From NCBI GenBank assembly GCA_019083985.1, contig JAHRCV010000002.1, positions 248,001 through 312,000 on the forward strand: DNA of 64,000 nt. The letters are read 5' to 3'. Shown one piece after another: positions 38,966 through 50,887 of this stretch (positions are counted from its first letter, which is position 1; every line of letters begins with the position of its first letter). Origin of the DNA: Rhizobiales bacterium TNE-4. GTDB lineage: Bacteria > Pseudomonadota > Alphaproteobacteria > Rhizobiales > Beijerinckiaceae. Under the pieces are notes generated by a model. The model did no database searches. It worked only from the letters and a program-made list of their open reading frames with translations, and was not told the DNA's origin. The position numbers and the translations under genes were made by a program.

Positions 38966-40126
38966 TCAGGCCGCGATTTCGGCCGTTTCGGTCAACGCCG
39001 CCGCACGCTGAATGATGCCACCGCCGAGCACGCGGGCACGCGGCTCCACGCTGTCATAGAACACGCAGGCCTGCCCGGGGGATACGCCATATTCGCCATC
39101 AAACAGCGTGACACTGATGACATCGCCTTCGCGCCGCAGCAGCGCAGGTTGCGGTGGCCGCGTTGAACGCACACGCACGGCGATTTCGCGCCCCTCGTCC
39201 AACGCCGCGTCGACGGCGCCATCGCCGATCCAGTTCACATCGCGCAACAGGATGCTGCGCGTGGCCAAAGCCTCACGCGGCCCGACAACGACACGGCGGT
39301 TCGGCGCATCAATCCGCACGACATAAAGTGGTTCGCCAGTAGCAAGCCCCAGCCCACGGCGCTGGCCGATCGTATAATGAATGATGCCCTGATGCGCACC
39401 AAGCACGCGGCCATCAAGGTGCACGATATCGCCCGCCTCTGCCGCGTCGGGGCGCAATTTTTCGATCACATCCGTGTAACGGCCATTGGGCACAAAGCAG
39501 ATATCTTGGCTGTCATGCTTGTCAGCAATCGCGAGACCAAAGTCCCGCGCCAGCGCACGCGTTTCAGTCTTGCCCATATCGCCGAGCGGAAAGCGCAACA
39601 AATCGAGCTGTTCGCGCGTCGTTGCATAGAGGAAATAGCTTTGATCGCGATCAGGATCGGCGGCGCGATAAAGCGCGCGACCACCCATGCCATCAGCACG
39701 GCTGGCCACATAATGGCCGGTTGCCAGCGCCGACGCACCCAAGTCACGCGCGGTCGCTAGAAGATCGCGAAACTTCACCGAGCGATTGCACTCGACGCAG
39801 GGGATCGGTGTCTCGCCCTGCAAATAGGATTCAACGAAATTGTCGATCACGGAATCGCGGAAGCGGCTTTCATAATCGAGCACGTAATGCGGAATTCCGA
39901 GATGCTCAGCCACACGGCGCGCATCATGAATATCTTGCCCGGCGCAGCAGGCCCCTGCACGATGCACCGCCTCGCCATGATCGTAGAGCTGCAGCGTGAT
40001 GCCGACGACATCGTAACCCGCGCGCTTCATCAACCCGGCGACAACCGAGGAATCAACGCCACCCGACATCGCGACGACGACGCGGTGCGAGGCGGGATCT
40101 CCGGGAAGATCGAGCGGGGCAATCAT
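38966..40126 (-). CDS. mnmA: tRNA 2-thiouridine(34) synthase MnmA
   Basis: A 386-residue cytoplasmic enzyme that thiolates U34 of tRNA-Lys, -Glu and -Gln. The PP-loop [13 protein letters not shown] is at residues 18-30. Catalytic cysteines are in [12 protein letters not shown] near 108-119 and in [12 protein letters not shown] near 209-220. The RNA-binding linker [11 protein letters not shown] is present. Length is normal (about 370-390). The upstream 194 bases contain the divergent fliK promoter region. Confidence 0.95.
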
Positions 40127-40188
40127 GGGTTCGTTCCTTGAGGCTGGGCCGAATGTAGGGATTTCACACAGCCATGGCCAGCATAAGG

Positions 40189-40202
40189 CGGCAGAATTTG
40201 CC
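40189..40202. promoter_or_regulatory. FlbD-type enhancer site upstream of fliK
   Basis: CGGCAGAATTTGCC, a palindrome of GGCA-GAATT-TGCC, lies about 80 bases upstream of the sigma-54 promoter of fliK, near -106 from the predicted start. The same 14-mer is in the fliF promoter at 50871-50884. Position and form recall Caulobacter ftr elements bound by FlbD. A further small inverted repeat, GAATT-GGGC-AATTC, follows at 40204-40217. Confidence 0.68.
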
Positions 40203-40275
40203 TGAATTGGGCAATTCCTTCCGCCAGTGCGCCCGCCTTGTGTGCCTAAGCTATTGAAATTGCAAGCAGCAGTGC

Positions 40276-40291
40276 TGGTGCGGCGTTTGCT
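40276..40291 (+). promoter_or_regulatory. Sigma-54 promoter of fliK-flgD
   Basis: TGGTGCGGCGTTTGCT matches TGGCACG-N4-TTGCW at 10 of 12 conserved positions; the invariant GG and GC are 10 bases apart. A start near 40302 would leave about 19 bases before the fliK ATG. The sigma-54 activator FlbD is encoded nearby. Confidence 0.72.
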
Positions 40292-40320
40292 CTCAGAAAA
40301 GCTCGACCGCGCGAGGACCT

Positions 40321-41370
40321 ATGAACGCAGCCCCAATCCCACCCCGCGACGTAAAACCGGCCGATCGCCCGCTGCCACGCGACCCACAGGCGGCGGGCGC
40401 ATCGGACGGCGATCCCGCCTCCGCTGAAACCCGCTTCACCGACCTTGTGAAAGAGGCGGCGAGCGACCCAACGGCCATGGCAAAGCCGCAAGACCCAGTC
40501 TCTGACGCTGAAGGCGCGAAGAAAAACGCCGACGCCCCCAGCGAAAAGGATGAGTCAACCCCGACTGACACGAAGACCGAGACGCCTGTAGCGATGCCGA
40601 CGCCGCCCATCGCGCTCGCGCAACCGGCACGACCGACACCGCCCGCACCGACCGCCGACACAGAGAAGCCCGGCGCGGTGACGGATAAGGAGGCATCAGG
40701 CCAAGGCCAGGGCCGTATAGCCGCGCTCAAATCTGCCGCGCTGTCATCGCCTCACCCTGACACGCCAGCCACAAAAAAGACCCGCGAACCGCAGGCGGCG
40801 TCAGATAAATTCGATGCCTTGCTCGGTCCCTCGCAAATGCATAGCGAAGCACCCCCGCCCGCCCCTGCAACGCCCGCAGCGGCGGGCCTAGGGCGGCCAG
40901 CAGAGCCGCCTGCGCCGGTGGCCGCGCCACCACCGCTGCAACCATCCTTGCCCATCGCCGCCGTCCCCGCTTCGATTGCGATCAAGGCGCTGTCGGGCAG
41001 CAACCGCTTCGACATCCGGCTTGATCCGGAAGAGCTAGGCCGGATCGACGTCGCGCTTGAGATCGATAGGGATGGCCATATCCGTGCGTCGATTGCAGCC
41101 GAGAAACCTGAAGCCTTGCAACTCATCGTGCGCGAAGCGCGCGCGCTCGAACAAGCCTTCGATCAAGCGGGTTTCCGCCGCGATGAGAACACGCTGAATT
41201 TCAGCCTGTCTGACCGGCAATCCTCGCCGCAAGATCAACAGAATTCGCAGAACCGCCCACAGACAACACGATTTTTCGTCGACGGTGATGGCGAATTGCC
41301 GCCAAGCCTTGCAGCGCTCGTCAACACCACGACCAACCGCGCCGATGGGCGCCTCGATGTAAGGATTTGA
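40321..41370 (+). CDS. fliK: Flagellar hook-length control protein FliK
   Basis: A 349-residue protein of low-complexity N-terminal two-thirds rich in Ala, Pro, Asp and Thr (disordered ruler-like region). A folded C-terminal FliK domain follows at about 215-320, with the hallmark RFDIRLDPEELGRIDVALEI. FliK measures hook length and switches export from hook to filament substrates through FlhB. It is exported itself. A sigma-54 promoter lies just upstream; flgD follows after one base, so the two are co-transcribed. Confidence 0.9.
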   Translation: MNAAPIPPRDVKPADRPLPRDPQAAGASDGDPASAETRFTDLVKEAASDPTAMAKPQDPVSDAEGAKKNADAPSEKDESTPTDTKTETPVAMPTPPIALAQPARPTPPAPTADTEKPGAVTDKEASGQGQGRIAALKSAALSSPHPDTPATKKTREPQAASDKFDALLGPSQMHSEAPPPAPATPAAAGLGRPAEPPAPVAAPPPLQPSLPIAAVPASIAIKALSGSNRFDIRLDPEELGRIDVALEIDRDGHIRASIAAEKPEALQLIVREARALEQAFDQAGFRRDENTLNFSLSDRQSSPQDQQNSQNRPQTTRFFVDGDGELPPSLAALVNTTTNRADGRLDVRI

Positions 41371-41371
41371 G

Positions 41372-42028
41372 ATGAGCGTATCAGGGATCGGATCGTCCTC
41401 TGCGAGCAGCACCGGCACACCCACAAGCAGCGCCTCGATCGCCGCGACGTTCGATCAATTCCTGACGCTGTTGACGACGCAATTGCAAAATCAAAATCCG
41501 CTCGATCCGCTCGACACGAACCAGTTCACCCAGCAGCTGGTGCAATTTGCTGGCGTCGAACAGCAACTCAAGACGAACAGCCAGCTTGAGGCGCTTGTTA
41601 CACAGGGCAAGAGCCAGAGTGTGCCCGCCGCAGCCGGCTTCGTTGGCATGAAACTCATTGCCGACGGCTCCACATCGACGCTCGCTAATAGTCAAGCGAG
41701 CTGGAGCTTGAAAAGCCCGGCGGCTGGCACGGCCACCTTCACCGTGACCGACAAGAACAACAAGACCGTTTACACCGAGACCAAGAAGATCACAGCTGGC
41801 CAGCAGAGCTTCACTTGGAACGGCAAGGACCAGAACAAGACGACCTACCCCGCCGGTGATTATCGCCTCTCGGTCGCCGCCAAAGATGCAGCAGGACGCG
41901 CCATTGCCGTCTCCACGGAGATCGAAGGCGTGGTGGATTCCGTCCGCTTTGAGGGGGATACCCCGATCTTGATGCTGGGCAACCAGTCCATCGCTTATGA
42001 CAGGGTTCGCCAGATCCAGAAGAACTAA
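41372..42028 (+). CDS. flgD: Flagellar hook assembly scaffold FlgD
   Basis: A 218-residue hook cap protein. The N-terminal signature FDQFLTLLTTQLQNQNPLDPLD is at about 27-48 (cut here into FLTLLTTQLQ and NPLDPLDTNQFTQQL). The central and C-terminal parts have the FlgD Ig-like beta domain (FTWNGKDQNKTTYPAGDYRLSV near 150-171) and the Tudor-like end. FlgD sits at the growing hook tip and guides FlgE addition. Its ATG is one base after the fliK stop. Confidence 0.94.
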   Translation: MSVSGIGSSSASSTGTPTSSASIAATFDQFLTLLTTQLQNQNPLDPLDTNQFTQQLVQFAGVEQQLKTNSQLEALVTQGKSQSVPAAAGFVGMKLIADGSTSTLANSQASWSLKSPAAGTATFTVTDKNNKTVYTETKKITAGQQSFTWNGKDQNKTTYPAGDYRLSVAAKDAAGRAIAVSTEIEGVVDSVRFEGDTPILMLGNQSIAYDRVRQIQKN

Positions 42029-42099: not shown

Positions 42100-42157
42100 G
42101 CCGGAGCCCCTTATGGTCTTCAACATTGTTGGTTTGTCGAGCGTGCGTGAGCGTATC

Positions 42158-42433
42158 ATGACAGAACCCTATCGACCGAGGGTGAAATATGTAATCGGGC
42201 CGGATGGCAGTCCTCTGACTGTCGCCGATCTGCCGCCGCAGAATACGCGGCGTTGGGTTATCCGGCGCAAAGCTGAGGTTGTTGCCGCCGTTCGCGGCGG
42301 TTTGCTCAGCCTCGAGGAAGCGTGCAACCGCTATACGTTGACCGTGGAAGAATTCCTGTCCTGGCAGGCCTCCATTGATGAGCATGGCCTCGCCGGACTG
42401 CGCACGACGCGCATCCAGCAATATCGCCATTGA
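42158..42433 (+). CDS. sciP: CtrA inhibitor SciP (DUF1153)
   Basis: A 91-residue DNA-binding protein of the DUF1153/SciP family. In Caulobacter SciP binds DNA and CtrA and blocks CtrA-activated transcription. Recognition sequence: YRPRVKYVIGPDGSPLTVADLPP near 5-27, then RWVIRRKAEVVAAVRGGLLSLEEACNRY, a homeodomain-like helix-turn-helix (about 32-60). The frame is open 15 codons upstream, but ATG 42158 gives the standard N-terminus MTEPYRPR. It sits between flgD and flhA with its own CtrA-type box and a terminator after it. Confidence 0.92.
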   Translation: MTEPYRPRVKYVIGPDGSPLTVADLPPQNTRRWVIRRKAEVVAAVRGGLLSLEEACNRYTLTVEEFLSWQASIDEHGLAGLRTTRIQQYRH

Positions 42434-42566: not shown

Positions 42567-42608
42567 AATCGCGCGTTTTTCAGCGCGCCTATTTTTCAAG
42601 GATTGCCC

Positions 42609-44735
42609 ATGTCGGAATTGCCCGCCAACGCCGCCCCGGGGTCGCGCAATTTCATGGCCGGCGGCCTGCCGCAAGATCTCGGTGCTTTTGCCTTGCGGTT
42701 ACGCTCAAGCGACATGGCACTCGCTTTCGTCGTCTTGGGCATCATTGTCATTTTGATCTTGCCGCTGCCGGCGCTCTTGCTCGATCTGCTGCTGGCGGTC
42801 TCGATCATCCTGTCTGTCTTGATCCTCATGACGGCCTTGTTCATCGAAACGCCGCTGCAATTCTCCGCCTTCCCGACCGTCTTGCTAATCGCAACAATGC
42901 TGAGGCTGGCGCTCAATCTGGCTTCAACGCGCCTCATCCTCGCCAATGGCCACACAGGTGCCGGCGCCGCAGGCCATGTCATCGAAGCGTTCGGCCACTT
43001 CGTGATGGGCGGCAATTTCGTCATCGGCATCATCGTTTTCGTGATCTTGCTGACAGTCAATTTCGTCGTGATCACGAAAGGCTCAGGCCGTATCGCCGAA
43101 GTGGCCGCCCGTTTCACGTTAGACGCGATGCCCGGCAAACAAATGGCGATCGATGCCGATCTATCAGCCGGGCTTATCGATGAGAAAACTGCGCGCGAAC
43201 GGCGCACGACTCTTGAAAATGAAAGCTCATTCTTTGGTGCGATGGATGGCGCGTCAAAATTTGTCCGCGGCGATGCCATCGCCGGGCTTCTGATCACAGC
43301 CATCAACATCATCGGCGGCATCATCATCGGCATGATGCAACATGGCATGACATTCTCAGCCGCAGGCAAAACATTCACGCTCCTTACCGTCGGCGATGGG
43401 CTTGTGACGCAAATACCGGCCCTGATCGTTTCGACGGCTGCGGGGCTTCTCGTCTCGAAAGCCGGCGTTGCAGGGGCCGCCGACAAGGCGCTCGCCGCGC
43501 AGCTTGCCACCATGCCGAAAGCGCTCGGTTTATCAGCCGTTGTGATGGCATTGATCGGGCTGATGCCCGGCATCCCCTTTCTGCCTTTCTTCGGCCTCGC
43601 CGCTGGCGCGGGCTGGTTCGCCTGGCATATCAATTCAACGCAGAAGCGGGACACGCTGACCGAAGCGGCGCAGGCTGATGAGAAGAAAGCGGTTGTGCCT
43701 GAGGATAATTATACCGAAGCGCTACGCGTGGATGAGGTGAAGGTCGAACTTGGCTACGCCATTGTCTCGCTTGCCGACGATGACACACAGGAAAAACTGA
43801 CCGCGCAAATTCGCGCTTTGCGGCGCAATCTAGCGAGCGAAATCGGCTTTCTTATGCCGTCCGTGCGGCTGGTCGACAATGTTCAGCTTGAGCCCAATCT
43901 CTACATCATCCGCATCAAGGAGATCGAAGCGGGGCGCGGCACGGTCTATCCGGGCCAGTTCATGTGCCTTGATCCCTCAGGCGCACAGGTCAATCTTCCG
44001 GGCCAGCCGACCATTGAACCGAGCTTTGGATTGCCCGCGCTTTGGATCGACGCCTCCTTGCATGAAGAAGCGCAATTGCAGGGCCTGACTGTTGTCGATG
44101 CATCGACGGTCATCGCAACGCATCTAACTGAACTTATCAAAGCCAATGTCAGCGAATTGCTCGGCTATGTTGAGTTGCAGAAGCTGATCCGTGAATTGCC
44201 AAAGGAGCATAGCGACCTCGTCAAGGAGATCGTGCCGACGCAAGTGGCGATGACGACGGTGCAACGCGTGCTGCAGACATTGCTCGAAGAACGCGTATCG
44301 ATCCGTGACCTTGGCGCCATTATGGAAGGCATTGCAGAAGCAGCAAGCTATACGAAGTCCCCGCGCGAAATCGTCGAGAATGTACGCGTGAGACTGGCAC
44401 GACAGATTTGCGCACAACATCTCGGACCAGACAATCTTCTGCCGATCATCACCTTGTCACCCGGCTGGGAGAATGCCTTTGCTGAAGCCATTGTCGGCCA
44501 AGGCGATGACCGCCATCTCGCCATGGCGCCTTCAAAAGTCGGCGAGTTCATGACCGCATTGCGCGAACGCTTTGATGCAGCAGCACGCGAAGGCATCACG
44601 CCAGTGCTTGTGACCTCAGCCTATGTGCGGCCCTATGTGCGCTCGGTCGTCGAACGCTTGCGACGCGACACGCCGGTGATGGCGCAGCAAGAAATCTCGC
44701 CGCGTATCAGGCTGAAGCCGTTCGGGAGCCTGTAA
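42609..44735 (+). CDS. flhA: Flagellar export gate protein FlhA
   Basis: A 708-residue inner-membrane component of the flagellar type III export gate. About eight helices occupy residues 35-335. The FHIPEP signature region, LNFVVITKGSGRIAEVAARFTLDAMPGKQMAIDADL-like, spans about 150-190 (VITKGSGRIAEVAARF then LDAMPGKQMAID). The large cytoplasmic domain from about 350 forms the docking ring. ATG 42609 has AAGGA six bases upstream. Flagellar operons converge on this locus: flhA reads rightward toward a gene on the other strand. Confidence 0.96.
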   Translation: MSELPANAAPGSRNFMAGGLPQDLGAFALRLRSSDMALAFVVLGIIVILILPLPALLLDLLLAVSIILSVLILMTALFIETPLQFSAFPTVLLIATMLRLALNLASTRLILANGHTGAGAAGHVIEAFGHFVMGGNFVIGIIVFVILLTVNFVVITKGSGRIAEVAARFTLDAMPGKQMAIDADLSAGLIDEKTARERRTTLENESSFFGAMDGASKFVRGDAIAGLLITAINIIGGIIIGMMQHGMTFSAAGKTFTLLTVGDGLVTQIPALIVSTAAGLLVSKAGVAGAADKALAAQLATMPKALGLSAVVMALIGLMPGIPFLPFFGLAAGAGWFAWHINSTQKRDTLTEAAQADEKKAVVPEDNYTEALRVDEVKVELGYAIVSLADDDTQEKLTAQIRALRRNLASEIGFLMPSVRLVDNVQLEPNLYIIRIKEIEAGRGTVYPGQFMCLDPSGAQVNLPGQPTIEPSFGLPALWIDASLHEEAQLQGLTVVDASTVIATHLTELIKANVSELLGYVELQKLIRELPKEHSDLVKEIVPTQVAMTTVQRVLQTLLEERVSIRDLGAIMEGIAEAASYTKSPREIVENVRVRLARQICAQHLGPDNLLPIITLSPGWENAFAEAIVGQGDDRHLAMAPSKVGEFMTALRERFDAAAREGITPVLVTSAYVRPYVRSVVERLRRDTPVMAQQEISPRIRLKPFGSL

Positions 44736-44738
44736 AAA

Positions 44739-45689
44739 TCAGGCCTGATCTTTCGAGCCGCGCAACACATCGGCAAGGCGCTGCCGTTCGAACAGCAGCA
44801 CGACGACGATCGAGAAGGCGAGCGGCAGCAGCAGATAAAGCAGGCGGAACACCAAAAGCGCTGCCACCACATCAGCCTTGGCCATATCAGGCATGGCTTT
44901 GACGAAGACGAATTCGAGCACGCCAAGACCACCTGGCGCGTGCGACAGAAGCGCCGCCGAGAACGAAGCGAGGAACACGCCGAGCACGACGAAGAAGCCG
45001 GGATTTCCCGCTTCAGGCAGCGCGAAATAAATGATGGCCGCCGCACCGATCAATTCCATCGGCGCCGCAATCAATTGCCGCCCGGCAATTCCAAGGCGCG
45101 GATAGAAGAGCTTGAATTTGCCGATCACCAAAGGCGGCAGGTTGAGCCACGAGCCCAGAATGTAGAGCCCGCAAAAGGCCAGCATGCCAAAGCCGATCAG
45201 CCGCGCTGTCCAGATCGGCACATCGAATAGGCGCTGCACAAGCTCCGGCTCGCCCACAAGCACAAGGCCACCAAGCAAGATTGTTCCATAAGCAAAAGTG
45301 AAGGAACACAGCGCAACGAGGACAGCGACTTCGCCCGCCGTCAGCCCTTTGGTGGAATAAGCGCGGTAACGCACCATCGCACCCGAAAATACCGATGCAC
45401 CGATATTGTGCGAGAGCGCGTAAGTCGTGAACGACACGAGTGAAATAAAGCCCCAGCCGAGCTTATGGCCGAGATGAAGCAGTGCGATCCGATCGTACCA
45501 AGCGAGCGCCGCGTAAGCGAGCAAGGTAGCGAGAATGCACATCACCCATTGGTGAAGTGAGATCGCCTTGAGGCTCCCAACGACATCGGCCGCCGACAAG
45601 CCTGCCAACTCTTTGTAAAGCAGCCAGCCTGAGAAAACGACGGCGGCAAGGCCAATCACTGGCCAAGCGTAATCGAGCAAACGCTTCAT
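44739..45689 (-). CDS. Lysylphosphatidylglycerol synthase-TM (UPF0104) family protein
   Basis: A 316-residue membrane protein with about eight helices. It matches the LPG_synthase_TM / UPF0104 (YbhN-like) family by the segment WYDRIALLHLGHKLGW, FTTYALSHNIGASVFSGAMVRYRAYSTKGLT near 87-117, and FSAALLSHAPGGLGVLEFVF near 240-259. The MprF-type catalytic half that aminoacylates lipids is absent, so it is probably a flippase-like or transporter-like protein of unknown substrate. It sits between flbD and flhA, convergent with flhA (3-base gap), an interruption of the usual flagellar order. Confidence 0.82.
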   Translation of the reverse strand: MKRLLDYAWPVIGLAAVVFSGWLLYKELAGLSAADVVGSLKAISLHQWVMCILATLLAYAALAWYDRIALLHLGHKLGWGFISLVSFTTYALSHNIGASVFSGAMVRYRAYSTKGLTAGEVAVLVALCSFTFAYGTILLGGLVLVGEPELVQRLFDVPIWTARLIGFGMLAFCGLYILGSWLNLPPLVIGKFKLFYPRLGIAGRQLIAAPMELIGAAAIIYFALPEAGNPGFFVVLGVFLASFSAALLSHAPGGLGVLEFVFVKAMPDMAKADVVAALLVFRLLYLLLPLAFSIVVVLLFERQRLADVLRGSKDQA

Positions 45690-45808: not shown

Positions 45809-47179
45809 TTAATACGTGGCCAGACGGGTCGCCATCCCGCCCCCGCTCCCCAGCGGGCCGGCAGCGTCGTGCTGAGCGGCATATTCATTAAGCTTGTTCC
45901 GCAAGGTCCGGATGGAAATGCCGAGCACGCGCGCCGCATGGGTGCGGTTGCCGCCGCAATGGTCGAGCGTATCAAGGATGAGCCCACGCTCGACATCGGC
46001 CACGCTGCGGCCGACCAGGTCGCGCGTGAGCACTGCGCCAGCCCGCGCCGCCGCGCGGTCAACATCATCGCCAAGGCCGTAAGCTTCCCCAAGGCCGATG
46101 AGCGCATCGGGACCGATCTCTGGACCCGTCGCGACAAGCACCGCACGGTGTAAGACGTTCTCAAGCTCACGCACATTCCCGCGCCAGGGATTGGCCAGCA
46201 ATTGCCGTTTGGCCGCCTCAGCCAACGGCCGCACCGGCAAGCCATTCGCGGCCGCAAAGCGCTGAATGAAATGGGCACTCAAGGCGAGCACGTCAGCGGG
46301 CCGTTCACGCAAGGGCGGTAAGCGCAGGGCAACCACGTTCAGGCGGTAATAAAGATCCTGTCGGAAACGGCCGGCCCGCACTTCATCTTCGAGCTTGCGG
46401 TTCGATGTTGCGAGCACGCGAATATCGACGGGCACAGGTTTGCCGCCCCCCACGCGATCAATCACCCGCTCTTGCAGCGCGCGCAAAAGCTTGGCTTGCA
46501 GCCGCGCATCCATCTCGGAAATCTCATCAAGCAACAGCGTGCCGCCATCCGCCTCCTCGAATTTACCGATGCGACGCGCGACAGCGCCCGTGAACGCGCC
46601 ACGCTCATGGCCGAACAATTCACTCTCCAAAAGACCTTCGGGCAGCGCTGCGCAATTGACTGAGACGAAGGGCTTTGCCTTTCGCTTGGACCGATCATGG
46701 AGGAAACGCGCCATCACCTCCTTGCCCGTGCCGCTCTCACCCGTGATCATGATCGATGCATCAGATGCCGCGATCTTTTCAGCCAGACTGACGACGCGTT
46801 CCATGGCCGGATCATGCCAGACGAAAGCAGACTTTGAATCCGTCACCGCTTCCAGCATGGCTGCAATCAATTCGGCATCAGGCGGCAAAGGCAGAAAATC
46901 ACGTGCACCCGCGGCAATCGCCGCTGTGGCCGCATCCTTATCAAGCTTCGTACCGCAGGCAATGACAGGCGTTGCGATGCGCTCATCGGCAAGCGCCCGG
47001 ATCAAGGCCGCAATATCAAGCGCTACATCGACGATCAAAAGGTCGGCGCCACGCTTGCGCAGAAAATCCAGCCCCTGCGCGATGCTTTCCGCCGTTGTCG
47101 CCGCAGCACCCCGTTGCATCGCCATCCGCGTGGCTTCAATCAGCGGCGCGCGTAACGGTCCAATGACCAATAATCTCAT
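45809..47179 (-). CDS. flbD: Sigma-54-dependent flagellar regulator FlbD
   Basis: A 456-residue bacterial enhancer-binding protein. The N-terminal receiver-like domain (1-120) keeps an Asp in LLIVDVALD but is otherwise divergent. The AAA+ domain (about 125-355) has Walker A GESGTGKEV, the sigma-54 contact loop GAFTGA, Walker B GGTLLLDEI and RLPPLRERPADV. A Fis-type HTH ends it (THAARVLGISIRTLRNKLNEY near 413-433). It is last in fliF-G-H-N-flbD, as in Caulobacter, where FlbD activates late sigma-54 promoters and represses fliF. Matching FlbD-type sites occur before fliK and fliF in this window. Confidence 0.92.
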   Translation of the reverse strand: MRLLVIGPLRAPLIEATRMAMQRGAAATTAESIAQGLDFLRKRGADLLIVDVALDIAALIRALADERIATPVIACGTKLDKDAATAAIAAGARDFLPLPPDAELIAAMLEAVTDSKSAFVWHDPAMERVVSLAEKIAASDASIMITGESGTGKEVMARFLHDRSKRKAKPFVSVNCAALPEGLLESELFGHERGAFTGAVARRIGKFEEADGGTLLLDEISEMDARLQAKLLRALQERVIDRVGGGKPVPVDIRVLATSNRKLEDEVRAGRFRQDLYYRLNVVALRLPPLRERPADVLALSAHFIQRFAAANGLPVRPLAEAAKRQLLANPWRGNVRELENVLHRAVLVATGPEIGPDALIGLGEAYGLGDDVDRAAARAGAVLTRDLVGRSVADVERGLILDTLDHCGGNRTHAARVLGISIRTLRNKLNEYAAQHDAAGPLGSGGGMATRLATY

Positions 47180-47190
47180 TGCAATAATCC

Positions 47191-47529
47191 TTACCTGTCG
47201 TTCTTCTCAATTTCCGTCATCGTCACGCCGAGCTTCTCATCAATCAGCACGACTTCACCGCGCGCAACGAGGCGGTTGTTGACAAAAACATCAATGGGCT
47301 CGCCGACGCGACGATCAAGTTCAAGGACCGCACCGGGGCCAAGCGCAACGAGCGAAGCAATCTCGAGCCGCGTCCGGCCCAACACGGCTGAGACCGTTAC
47401 TGGGACATCGAACACATGTTCGAGATCGGCGGCCGTTTTGGCGACCCCCGGTGGCGCCAACATATCGGGTGAAGTTTCGAGCGCCACATCCGCAATATCA
47501 GGCAAGAGCTGGGTTGCTGTCTCATCCAT
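47191..47529 (-). CDS. fliN: Flagellar motor switch protein FliN
   Basis: A 112-residue SpoA-domain protein of the flagellar C-ring. The C-terminal 75 residues carry the fold: FDVPVTVSAVLGRTRLEIASLVALGPGAVLELDR and VFVNNRLVARGEVVLIDEKLGVTMTEI (motifs split for length). ATG 47529 overlaps fliH by eight bases; a GTG three codons upstream is an alternative. It is between fliH and flbD with 11 bases to flbD. Confidence 0.92.
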   Translation of the reverse strand: MDETATQLLPDIADVALETSPDMLAPPGVAKTAADLEHVFDVPVTVSAVLGRTRLEIASLVALGPGAVLELDRRVGEPIDVFVNNRLVARGEVVLIDEKLGVTMTEIEKNDR

Positions 47530-48160
47530 CGCAATCACTCATATTGTTCAATGAAAAACCGCAACGCTGAAATTCATCCATCAGGCGCGTGCGGAGCGCA
47601 TCACGGTCAAAGCGTAACGCACCATCGGGCCATTCCAGCACGAAGGCGGTTGCCCCTGACCCTGCCGGCAAAGCTTCGACCGAGACCGTCCCAGAAAAGC
47701 GCAAATCATGGGCGAGCTGCTGGAGCCGCTTTTCAACGCTGTCGCGCATATCCGCTGGAACACGCGCTACAATCCGTGTCGCTTGCGCATAATGGAGCAA
47801 AGTCTCGCGCACTGCAGCGGTGAAAGAAGCAAGCGGATCATAGCCAGCGATAATATCGCCATGCAGAGTGGCGAGTTGATGGGCGAGCGCAACGCTCGCT
47901 CTCTCACAGCCCTGCAAAAAGCGATCACGATCATCGGCGAACTGGCCCAAGGCTGCGGCAAGGCTTTGAAGGGCCTGCGCGAGCTGCGCCTCATCGCTGG
48001 CGGCCTGCGCATTTTGGCCAGCGACAAAGCCAGCCGCATAGCCTTGTTGATGAGCTTCTTCGAGGGCTGCGCGATCCTGCGCACGCCGCATCATGCCATC
48101 ACGACGCTCCAGCCCGAAATCATCGCCGAATGTAAATTTATGGGCGGCGGCTGCACTCAT
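47522..48160 (-). CDS. fliH: Flagellar assembly protein FliH
   Basis: A 212-residue regulator of the export ATPase FliI. The N-terminus has HKFTFGDDFG (about 8-17), then a coiled region with Gxxx-type spacing (HQQGYAAGFVAGQNAQ near 35-50) characteristic of FliH. The C-terminal V-type ATPase-subunit-E-like domain follows. ATG 48160 is chosen because it is one base after the fliG stop; the frame extends 17 codons into fliG. Similarity is low, as usual for this family; the operon position makes the call firm. Confidence 0.85.
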   Translation of the reverse strand: MSAAAAHKFTFGDDFGLERRDGMMRRAQDRAALEEAHQQGYAAGFVAGQNAQAASDEAQLAQALQSLAAALGQFADDRDRFLQGCERASVALAHQLATLHGDIIAGYDPLASFTAAVRETLLHYAQATRIVARVPADMRDSVEKRLQQLAHDLRFSGTVSVEALPAGSGATAFVLEWPDGALRFDRDALRTRLMDEFQRCGFSLNNMSDCDG

Positions 48161-48161
48161 C

Positions 48162-49190
48162 TCAGAACACCATCTCGTCGTCACCGCGGCTCTTCGATAG
48201 GATGATGTCACCCTTCGTCGCCAGATCTTTCACGATCTGGAGAATGGCTTGCTGCGCATCGTCAACATCCTTGAGCCGCAAGGGGCCGATCGTCGCCATA
48301 TCCTCAAGCAGGATTTTGACCGCGCGCTGTGACATTGCTTCAAAAAAGAAATCCTTCACATAATCTGCCGATCCTTTGAGGGCGCGCGCGAGCAGATCAC
48401 GATCCACAGCACGAACGATGACTTGTGCGGTATTCGAATCAAGCCGTGTCAAATCTTCAAACGTGAACATCAGCGAGCGGATACGATCAGCGGCCTGACG
48501 GTTGATTTCATCAAGCGCTGTCAACATGCGCCCTTCTGTGGGTCGATCAAATGCATTGAAGATTTCCGCCATCTGCTCATTATTGTCACGCCGCGTCGTC
48601 AGCGATAGATTGCCAATGAATTCGATCCGCAACGTCTCCTCGATCCGCTCGAGCACCGTCTGCGGGACCGGCTCCATCCGCAGCATGCGATCAACCGTGT
48701 CGATGGCAAATTCATCAGGAAGAAGTGCAAGCACACGTGCAGCCTGATCCGTGGTGATCTTAGATAAAATGACAGCCACGGTCTGCGGATATTCATTCTT
48801 CAAATAGCCCGCTAGAATTTCATCCCGGACATTCGATAGTTTTTGCCAAATATTCCGCCCCGCCGGGCCGCGGATTTCCGCCATGATCTGTTCGGCACGG
48901 CGGTTGGGTAGAATTTTGCGGAGAAGCTGTTCTGTCTTTTCGAAATTCCCAGCAAGAGGACCGGAGGCAAGCCGCGTGACAAAATCATTGAGTAGGCCTT
49001 GGACCTGCTGCGCATCGATCTCCGGCAAGCGCGACATGGCCACCGAGACGGTACGGATCTCGTCATCCTCAAGCGCGGTCCACAATTCGGATGTCCGCTC
49101 TTCGCCAAGCGACATCAAAAGGACGGCCGCCTTTTCAGGGCCCGTCAATTGCGGCTTGTTGCGGTCATTCGGCGCCATGGCTTGCGTCAC
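48162..49190 (-). CDS. fliG: Flagellar motor switch protein FliG
   Basis: A 342-residue C-ring protein that binds the MS-ring (FliF) at its N-terminus and torque-generating MotA at its C-terminus. Typical segments: KAAVLLMSLGEE, LPNRRAEQIMAEI, LSNVRDEILAGYLKNEYPQT-like (VRDEILAGYLKNEYPQ), HPQT-equivalent YPQTVAVIL, and the C-terminal charged helix with LLARALKGSADYVKDFFFEAMSQRA. Its ATG overlaps the fliF stop by four bases. Confidence 0.95.
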   Translation of the reverse strand: MTQAMAPNDRNKPQLTGPEKAAVLLMSLGEERTSELWTALEDDEIRTVSVAMSRLPEIDAQQVQGLLNDFVTRLASGPLAGNFEKTEQLLRKILPNRRAEQIMAEIRGPAGRNIWQKLSNVRDEILAGYLKNEYPQTVAVILSKITTDQAARVLALLPDEFAIDTVDRMLRMEPVPQTVLERIEETLRIEFIGNLSLTTRRDNNEQMAEIFNAFDRPTEGRMLTALDEINRQAADRIRSLMFTFEDLTRLDSNTAQVIVRAVDRDLLARALKGSADYVKDFFFEAMSQRAVKILLEDMATIGPLRLKDVDDAQQAILQIVKDLATKGDIILSKSRGDDEMVF

Positions 49191-50836
49191 GCATCCGTTG
49201 GTTCATTAATCCATTGCCGCAAAACGGTAATGGCGCCGTCAGGATTTTCGCTAAAAAGCTGACCAACCTGCTCCATGGAACGGGCATGAACCTGTCCGGT
49301 CTGCCGTGCCGCCTGAATCATGCGCGTCATTGGCGTGCCCACAGCGGGGATTTCGGGGAGCCCAGCGTCGCCATTCGCTTGCACAGGTGCAGCCTGAACC
49401 ATTTCAACGGCGCCCTGCGGCACGTCTGAAGCAGGGATCATCCGCACCGCTGGACCGCCGCTCAGCGCCGCCTTGAGCGTCGGGCGCACCACAGTGAACA
49501 GCAAGATGAGAATGACGAGCGATAGCACCACCATCTGGCCCATGCGGAACCAATCATCAAAAGAGAGAGGCGCACTGCGATCAGCGGTCAGCGGTTCGGG
49601 GATTGCGGGCAGATCAGCAAAGCGCAGATTGGCCACTTCGATCTGGTCACCGCGCTTCGTATCAAACCCGACGCCGGAGCGCACCAACGCAGCAATGCGA
49701 TCAAGTTCTTCCTGCCGCCGCGGCTCATAATTAATCTCACCGTTAGGCGCTTTTTTATAAGAACCATCGACCAGCACCGCGACCGACAAGCGTTTGACAC
49801 GTCCGCTTTCGAGCGTTTCCACACGGACGGTTTTTGAGATTTCGTAATTGGTAGTCTCTTCAACCTTGTTGGATTGCTCGCGATTGGCGCCATTGCCTGA
49901 TTGTTGTTGCGCGCCATTAGGCACCTGCGCCGCAGCCCCCAGCGCGGCATTATCGCGCTCCTCATTCGAGCGGGTTTCATTGCGCGTTTGCGTCGATCGT
50001 ACGACACGACTTTCAGGATCAAAGGTTTCCTGCGTTTGCTGCACACGATTAAGATCGAGCTCGGCGTGAACCTGAACGCGCGCGCGGCCTTGGCCGACGA
50101 CGCTTGCAACTATATCCTCAATCCGCGCCTGCAATCGCTTCTCATAACCGGCTTGCCGCTCATCCGAAGCAGCGATGCCTTGCCCGGCCGGATCGCCGGT
50201 GGCTGCGAGCAGACGACCACGCTCGTCGACAATGGAAACGCGTTCGGGCTTTAGCCCATCAACGGCAGCAGCCGTGAGATGACGGATGGCCCGGATCTGG
50301 CCAGCGTCAAGCTCACCGCGCAATTTCAAGACAACAGAGGCATGGGGCGCGTCTTGATCGCGGCGGAACAATTTCTTCTCAGGAATTGCAAGATGAACGC
50401 GCGCCGCTTGTACCGGGGAAAGCGACCGGATCGAGCGCGCAATCTCACCTTCCATCGCGCGGAGCTGATTGACGTTCTGCACGAAGCTGGTTGAGGACCA
50501 GCCATCGCCGCGATCAAAAATCTCATAGCCCACGCCACTGCCAGCTGGGATACCACGGGATGCGAGATCAAGCCGCAGACGGGCCACCATGTCGCGCGGC
50601 ACCGTGATCGCGCCAATATCCTCGCGCCATTGATAGGCAATGCCACGGGTCTCAAGCTCTTTGATAATGGCACCGGCATCGTCAGCGGTGATCTGGCTGT
50701 AAAGCACAGCCATCGGCGTGCGTGTCAGATTCTGCACCATAAAGGCGATGAACGCGATGACCGCGATCAGAACGAGCCCCGACGCGACCAACCTGTCACG
50801 ACTGACACCTTGTAAGGCCTGCACAATTCTCGCCAC
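49187..50836 (-). CDS. fliF: Flagellar MS-ring protein FliF
   Basis: A 549-residue inner-membrane ring protein. One helix at about 15-35 and a second at about 425-447 (VVLSLVILILLFTVV) flank the periplasmic YscJ-like ring domains, with GYEIFDRGDGWSSTSFVQNVN and RIQALEGELARSI-like LRAMEGEIARSIRSLSPVQAARVHLAIPE (split motifs). The cytoplasmic tail ends in the FliG-binding region (DGAITVLRQWINE). It is first in the fliF-G-H-N-flbD operon. An FlbD-type inverted repeat lies 33-51 bases before its ATG. Confidence 0.95.
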   Translation of the reverse strand: MARIVQALQGVSRDRLVASGLVLIAVIAFIAFMVQNLTRTPMAVLYSQITADDAGAIIKELETRGIAYQWREDIGAITVPRDMVARLRLDLASRGIPAGSGVGYEIFDRGDGWSSTSFVQNVNQLRAMEGEIARSIRSLSPVQAARVHLAIPEKKLFRRDQDAPHASVVLKLRGELDAGQIRAIRHLTAAAVDGLKPERVSIVDERGRLLAATGDPAGQGIAASDERQAGYEKRLQARIEDIVASVVGQGRARVQVHAELDLNRVQQTQETFDPESRVVRSTQTRNETRSNEERDNAALGAAAQVPNGAQQQSGNGANREQSNKVEETTNYEISKTVRVETLESGRVKRLSVAVLVDGSYKKAPNGEINYEPRRQEELDRIAALVRSGVGFDTKRGDQIEVANLRFADLPAIPEPLTADRSAPLSFDDWFRMGQMVVLSLVILILLFTVVRPTLKAALSGGPAVRMIPASDVPQGAVEMVQAAPVQANGDAGLPEIPAVGTPMTRMIQAARQTGQVHARSMEQVGQLFSENPDGAITVLRQWINEPTDA

Positions 50837-50868: not shown

Positions 50869-50887
50869 ACCGGCAGAATTTGCCGGT
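50869..50887. promoter_or_regulatory. FlbD-type inverted repeat at the fliF promoter
   Basis: ACCGGCA-GAATT-TGCCGGT is a perfect 7-bp-arm palindrome. Its core is identical over 14 bases to the site upstream of fliK. It is centred 42 bases before the fliF start codon, matching the place of ftr4, through which FlbD represses fliF in Caulobacter. Confidence 0.65.

Follow-up and report, generated by a model that had tools for sequence, protein, structure and literature searches.

A Caulobacter-type FlbD/sigma-54 control region predicted upstream of fliK, with a matching palindrome at fliF, in a Rhizobiales-like genome

FliX couples FlbD to assembly in Caulobacter. Loss of FliX in this organism lowers fliK-lacZ expression and raises that of fliF-lacZ (PMC3096577), as would be expected if FlbD activates class III and represses class II flagellar genes; fliK is already an FlbD-dependent class III reporter there (PMC3096577), and FlbD represses fliF at the site ftr4 (PMC3930126). 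In Bradyrhizobium diazoefficiens, FlbD and FliX are described as class II regulators (Dardis et al. 2021, cited in PMC9977809).

The window (the whole stretch of DNA analysed here, 64,000 nucleotides in length) contains a region upstream of fliK that resembles the FlbD/ftr class III promoters of Caulobacter crescentus in its sigma-54-type -24/-12 element, its upstream ftr-like palindrome, the IHF-like site between the two, and fliK as the apparent target (PMC3096577, PMC3930126). The locus differs from that of C. crescentus in its Rhizobiales-like host (its FlhA shares up to 66% identity with that of Methylobacterium), in the genes that follow fliK (flgD, sciP, and flhA), and in that FliX was not found in the genus of the window. 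The B. diazoefficiens system, insofar as the citing article describes it, likewise has an FlbD-controlled flagellum in the same order, but includes the FliX not found here. Sequence comparison gives good support to viewing the arrangement at fliK and fliF as an instance, in a Rhizobiales-like host, of the flagellar switch known from Caulobacter, and not as a new kind of system; the Caulobacter FlbD/ftr switch would then extend to a Rhizobiales-like genome, with both of its arms in one window. The features of the locus are collected in Table 1.

Table 1. Positions of regulatory elements and genes in the window.
Feature	Position	Strand	Details
mnmA, divergent neighbour, not the presumed target	38966..40126	-	NF001138
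ftr-like putative FlbD enhancer, site 1	40189..40202		core GGCAGAATTTGCC 40190-40202, centre about -106; exact 14-mer
Degenerate second ftr-like site, GGCAATTCCTTCC	40210..40222		20 bp from site 1
IHF-like site, TTTCAATAGCTTA	40247..40259	-	1 mismatch to WATCAANNNNTTR
Predicted sigma-54 -24/-12 promoter	40276..40291	+	start ~40302; CTGGT...TTGCTC kept in G001 and G002
fliK	40321..41370	+	PF02120, E 6.8e-13
flgD	41372..42028	+	PF03963/PF13860; 1 base past fliK
sciP (CtrA inhibitor)	42113..42433	+	NF051866, 140.7 bits, above cut-off
flhA	42603..44735	+	TIGR01398, above cut-off
flbD, presumed activator/repressor	45809..47179	-	NF050807, 712.8 bits, 37 below cut-off of 750
fliN, fliH, fliG, fliF	47191..50836	-	upstream of flbD, probable shared operon
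ftr-like site at fliF, CCGGCAGAATTTGCCGG	50870..50886		17-bp palindrome, 34 bp upstream of fliF ORF start
CtrA-like box, TTTA-N7-TCAA	50894..50908	-	2 mismatches to TTAA-N7-TTAA; upstream of fliF ftr

Elements upstream of fliK and their conservation

The divergent genes mnmA, on the minus strand, and fliK, on the plus strand, are separated by the intergenic region 40127-40320. The first-pass annotation had placed a -24/-12 element, TGGTGCGGCGTTTGCT, at 40276-40291 and an enhancer palindrome, CGGCAGAATTTGCC, upstream of it; the former is present exactly there, and the latter was found at 40189-40202. We defined a sigma-54 promoter by GG at -24 and GC at -12 at canonical spacing in a YTGGN8TTGCW-like sequence, and the claimed fit to the -24/-12 consensus held up in that the GG/GC spacing is canonical in CTGGTGCGGCGTTTGCT (40275-40291). 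With the predicted fliK start set at about 40302 by the GC at -13/-12, the centre of the palindrome at 40196 falls at about -106, in agreement with the distance of about 106 bases originally given. Taken alone, the -24/-12 match is not clearly beyond chance across the genome, where TGGYNCN5TTGCW has 31 matches versus 21 for its reversed control; the -24 element at fliK, TGGTGC, also falls short in strength of the TGGCAC sites that contig C4 of the same genome carries, which counts against the explanation favoured below. Only two exact copies of the 13-base core of the palindrome exist in the 3.17 Mb genome, at 40190-40202 and 50872-50884, both within the window. A single rpoN (PF04552 match, C1:137306-137785) is present in the genome.

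The second ftr-like site has one mismatch in GGCA-N5-TGCC. It is degenerate in the window and in G002, and intact at the same place (GGCAGGTTCTGCC) in G001, these being the two other genomes of the genus that were compared with the window's own (G000). Palindrome copies about 20 bp apart recur upstream of fliK in relatives, and the fliK enhancer is probably a tandem pair of putative FlbD sites.

That the palindrome should be kept in relatives, as the earlier reading implied, was borne out: it is present in G001, in G002, and upstream of many fliK genes of the family and order. Both same-genus genomes carry a GGCGGCAGRWTTTGCC-like palindrome, the IHF-like block, and CTGGT...TTGCTC at spacing identical to that of the window, with FliK identities to the window of 49% (G001) and 65% (G002). 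Between G000 and G002, dS is about 0.9-2 for most genes flanking the fliK elements; both elements are retained in the genus although synonymous sites are near saturation. Of the 24 regions upstream of fliK that were taken from the family and order, 19 contain an exact GGCA-N5-TGCC and 18 a -24/-12 site, and the proposed order-wide pairing was recovered as an exact pair in the correct order in 12. Dinucleotide shuffles of these regions gave means of 0.4 loci for the palindrome, 0.2 for the -24/-12 site, and 0 for the exact pair, which appeared in none of 200 shuffles of the whole 24-locus set; the pairing upstream of fliK is far beyond chance.

An FlbD ftr enhancer was expected to show GGCA-N5-TGCC some 60-130 bp from the -24 element of flagellar operons, as is the case at fliK, and the order-wide distances from palindrome centre to TGG cluster at 60, 80-82, 91-93, and 101-104 bp. 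With a period of 10.5 bp these distances are in helical register (R = 0.83; p = 0.0002, each genus being counted once), the p value being only indicative because the phasing test was picked after the distance spread was known. An IHF-like site between palindrome and promoter was found in all three genus members and in 8 of 16 fliK loci (shuffle mean 1.3, with 0 of 500 shuffles reaching 8), a count that includes the three mutually non-independent genus members.

FlbD and the palindrome at fliF

The gene for FlbD, previously reported to lie 5 kb from the element, was located on the minus strand at 5.6 kb; NF050807, against which it was scored, is the Caulobacter FlbD model, and 750 is the model's curated cut-off. 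The encoded protein combines a receiver-like domain, an AAA+ domain with GAFTGA, and a Fis-type helix-turn-helix (HTH), as expected of an FlbD activator, and its Walker A motif (residue 147), GAFTGA motif (194), and HTH are all intact. Within the HTH, the recognition segment GISIRTLRNKL matches its counterpart in Caulobacter sp. D5 (L076) at every residue, an identity that supports binding of the ftr-like sites by FlbD. Between flhA and flbD lies a gene for an MprF-like protein consisting of the membrane domain only (44739-45689); Methylobacterium and Bosea loci have this same neighbour close to flhA.

A 14-mer identical to the fliK palindrome, missed in the first-pass annotation, lies at 50871-50884 within the longer palindrome upstream of fliF, and G002 has the same palindrome at fliF. 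The element thus stands also at the fliF operon, in a position like that of ftr4 in Caulobacter, which is likewise beside a CtrA-like box just before fliF in an operon encoding FlbD. In contrast to ftr4, the CtrA box here is degenerate, with two mismatches, and repression is a prediction. Most alphaproteobacterial fliF upstream regions in FlbD-bearing loci contain GGCA-N5-TGCC, exactly or with one mismatch; it is absent upstream of fliF in two Roseobacter-type loci, in which flbD was also not detected. Two architectures were seen among the fliF upstream regions L037-L088: in one (Rhizobiales/Caulobacterales), the CtrA box TTAA-N7-TTAA begins 25 bp ahead of the ftr palindrome, and in the other (mostly Rhodospirillales-type) it begins 18-20 bp past the palindrome start. 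The degenerate box of the window occupies the position before the palindrome, as in the architecture with the 25 bp offset. Autorepression is predicted because the site resembles ftr4 and precedes the operon that contains flbD, and by this analogy the window holds a predicted activation arm (fliK) and a probable FlbD autorepression arm (fliF).

A compact motif for annotating alphaproteobacterial FlbD regulons results: GGCA-N5-TGCC, in helical phase with -24/-12 and, at fliF, next to a CtrA box. The 44 GGCARNNNYTGCC sites were considered as FlbD targets and set aside: most are inside ORFs, five are intergenic, and only the two sites of the window precede recognised flagellar genes.

Proposed control of fliK and fliF, and its alternatives

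The original observation stands, and comparison with related loci lends good support to its interpretation: very probably, 40189-40302 serves in FlbD- and sigma-54-dependent activation of fliK-flgD, with the same palindrome serving in repression at fliF. It would control a flagellar operon of class III type comprising fliK and flgD, which are probably cotranscribed. FlbD dimers would occupy the palindrome centred near -106, and probably also the weaker tandem site near -86; the intervening DNA would loop, probably aided by IHF, and the GAFTGA loops of the FlbD AAA+ domain would bring the sigma-54 polymerase at -24/-12 to the open complex. At the fliF palindrome, FlbD would repress the putatively CtrA-activated fliF-fliG-fliH-fliN-flbD, its own operon.

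The promoter could instead be real and served by another enhancer-binding protein (one of two activators encoded on C4, or NtrC/NtrX), with the palindrome bound by some other factor. The genome does contain six strong matches to sigma-54 activators, FlbD included, and several strong -24/-12 sites beside the flagellar genes of C4, but no exact GGCA-N5-TGCC lies within 250 bp upstream of the scanned C4 sigma-54 sites, and the palindrome is found at both operons of the FlbD cluster and at fliF across FlbD-carrying Alphaproteobacteria; we regard this explanation as very unlikely. Regulation of the divergent mnmA by the palindrome, with fliK transcribed from an ordinary promoter, would fit the location of the palindrome upstream of mnmA, 63 bp from its start codon. 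Yet the palindrome and -24/-12 pair is kept at fliK in L015, L024, and L030 where no mnmA was detected upstream, and therefore follows fliK, and the same palindrome precedes fliF, where there is no mnmA; of the readings considered, this one seems the least credible.

It is also highly unlikely, if a touch less so than regulation of mnmA, that the element once functioned in a native flagellar system now decaying and is retained by recent ancestry only. Consistent with decay, searches of G000 and G001 recovered neither FliX nor native FliP nor native rod and hook genes, and fliK evolves fastest in the gene set. Against it, native fliF, fliG, fliH, fliN, fliI, fliJ, flhA, fliK, and flgD are all under strong purifying selection, and because their dN/dS values are 0.01-0.27 the flagellar genes of the window are seemingly in use; fliK is open in three species, with the elements kept despite the near saturation of synonymous sites.

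FliX and a second flagellar cluster

No match to FliX (PF10768) above cut-off was obtained in G000, G001, or G002; the genus differs in this from the FlbD-FliX circuit, fliX being present in G012, G021, and G030 of the same family and in Caulobacter. That FlbD's partner was not found weighs against the proposed control of fliK and fliF, as does the failure to find, in G000 or G001, native rod and hook genes and a native FliP, which would be the other targets and partners to expect. The apparent lack of FliX provides an opening to study the gating of FlbD without it. Relative to its AAA+ domain, the receiver-like domain of the window's FlbD is more diverged than that of any other member of the Rhizobiales set (ratio 0.79 versus 0.84-0.94), a divergence that would fit loss of FliX.

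Between about 27 and 80 kb (L118-L120), contig C4 of the window's genome carries another flagellar cluster, complete-looking and of sigma-54 type, that encodes FliF, FliG, FliH, FliI, FliM, FliP, FliR, FlhA, FlhB, FliK, and FlgD, and further FlgE, FlgK, FliD, flagellins, and an FlhF-like SRP54-type GTPase. Flg_bb_rod proteins above cut-off were found on this contig only. G001, with 100% marker completeness, also has FliP of this one type only, sharing 88% identity with the copy on C4. A second FliP in G002 was not accepted as evidence for a native export gate; it lies on a 3.5 kb contig, is about 50% identical to both the family-native and C4 FliP, and is possibly foreign. The remaining native flagellar genes may be missing from the assemblies. 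Alternatively, and we put this forward only as a tentative and rather doubtful possibility, the genus runs FlbD/ftr without FliX on the retained native half-set named above, its native rod and hook genes and FliP having been lost, while the separate, complete C4-type cluster builds the flagellum with its own activators. If true, the native half-set would have another role or feed into a hybrid flagellum.

An initial assignment of C4 as a nif cluster was rejected, its genes being flagellar, and a genome-wide -24/-12 scan for the FlbD regulon was discarded, as it returned many strong sites at the C4 cluster without the palindrome. On another contig of 17 kb, a 497-aa flagellin (G000:C7:11945-13521; L122) has no exact palindrome nearby and has a strong TGGCAC-N5-TTGCT promoter that starts 83 bp upstream. 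The C4 cluster has two sigma-54 activators of its own, one without a detected HTH_8 domain, and its FlgE (1359 aa) and FlgK (1299 aa) are very large.
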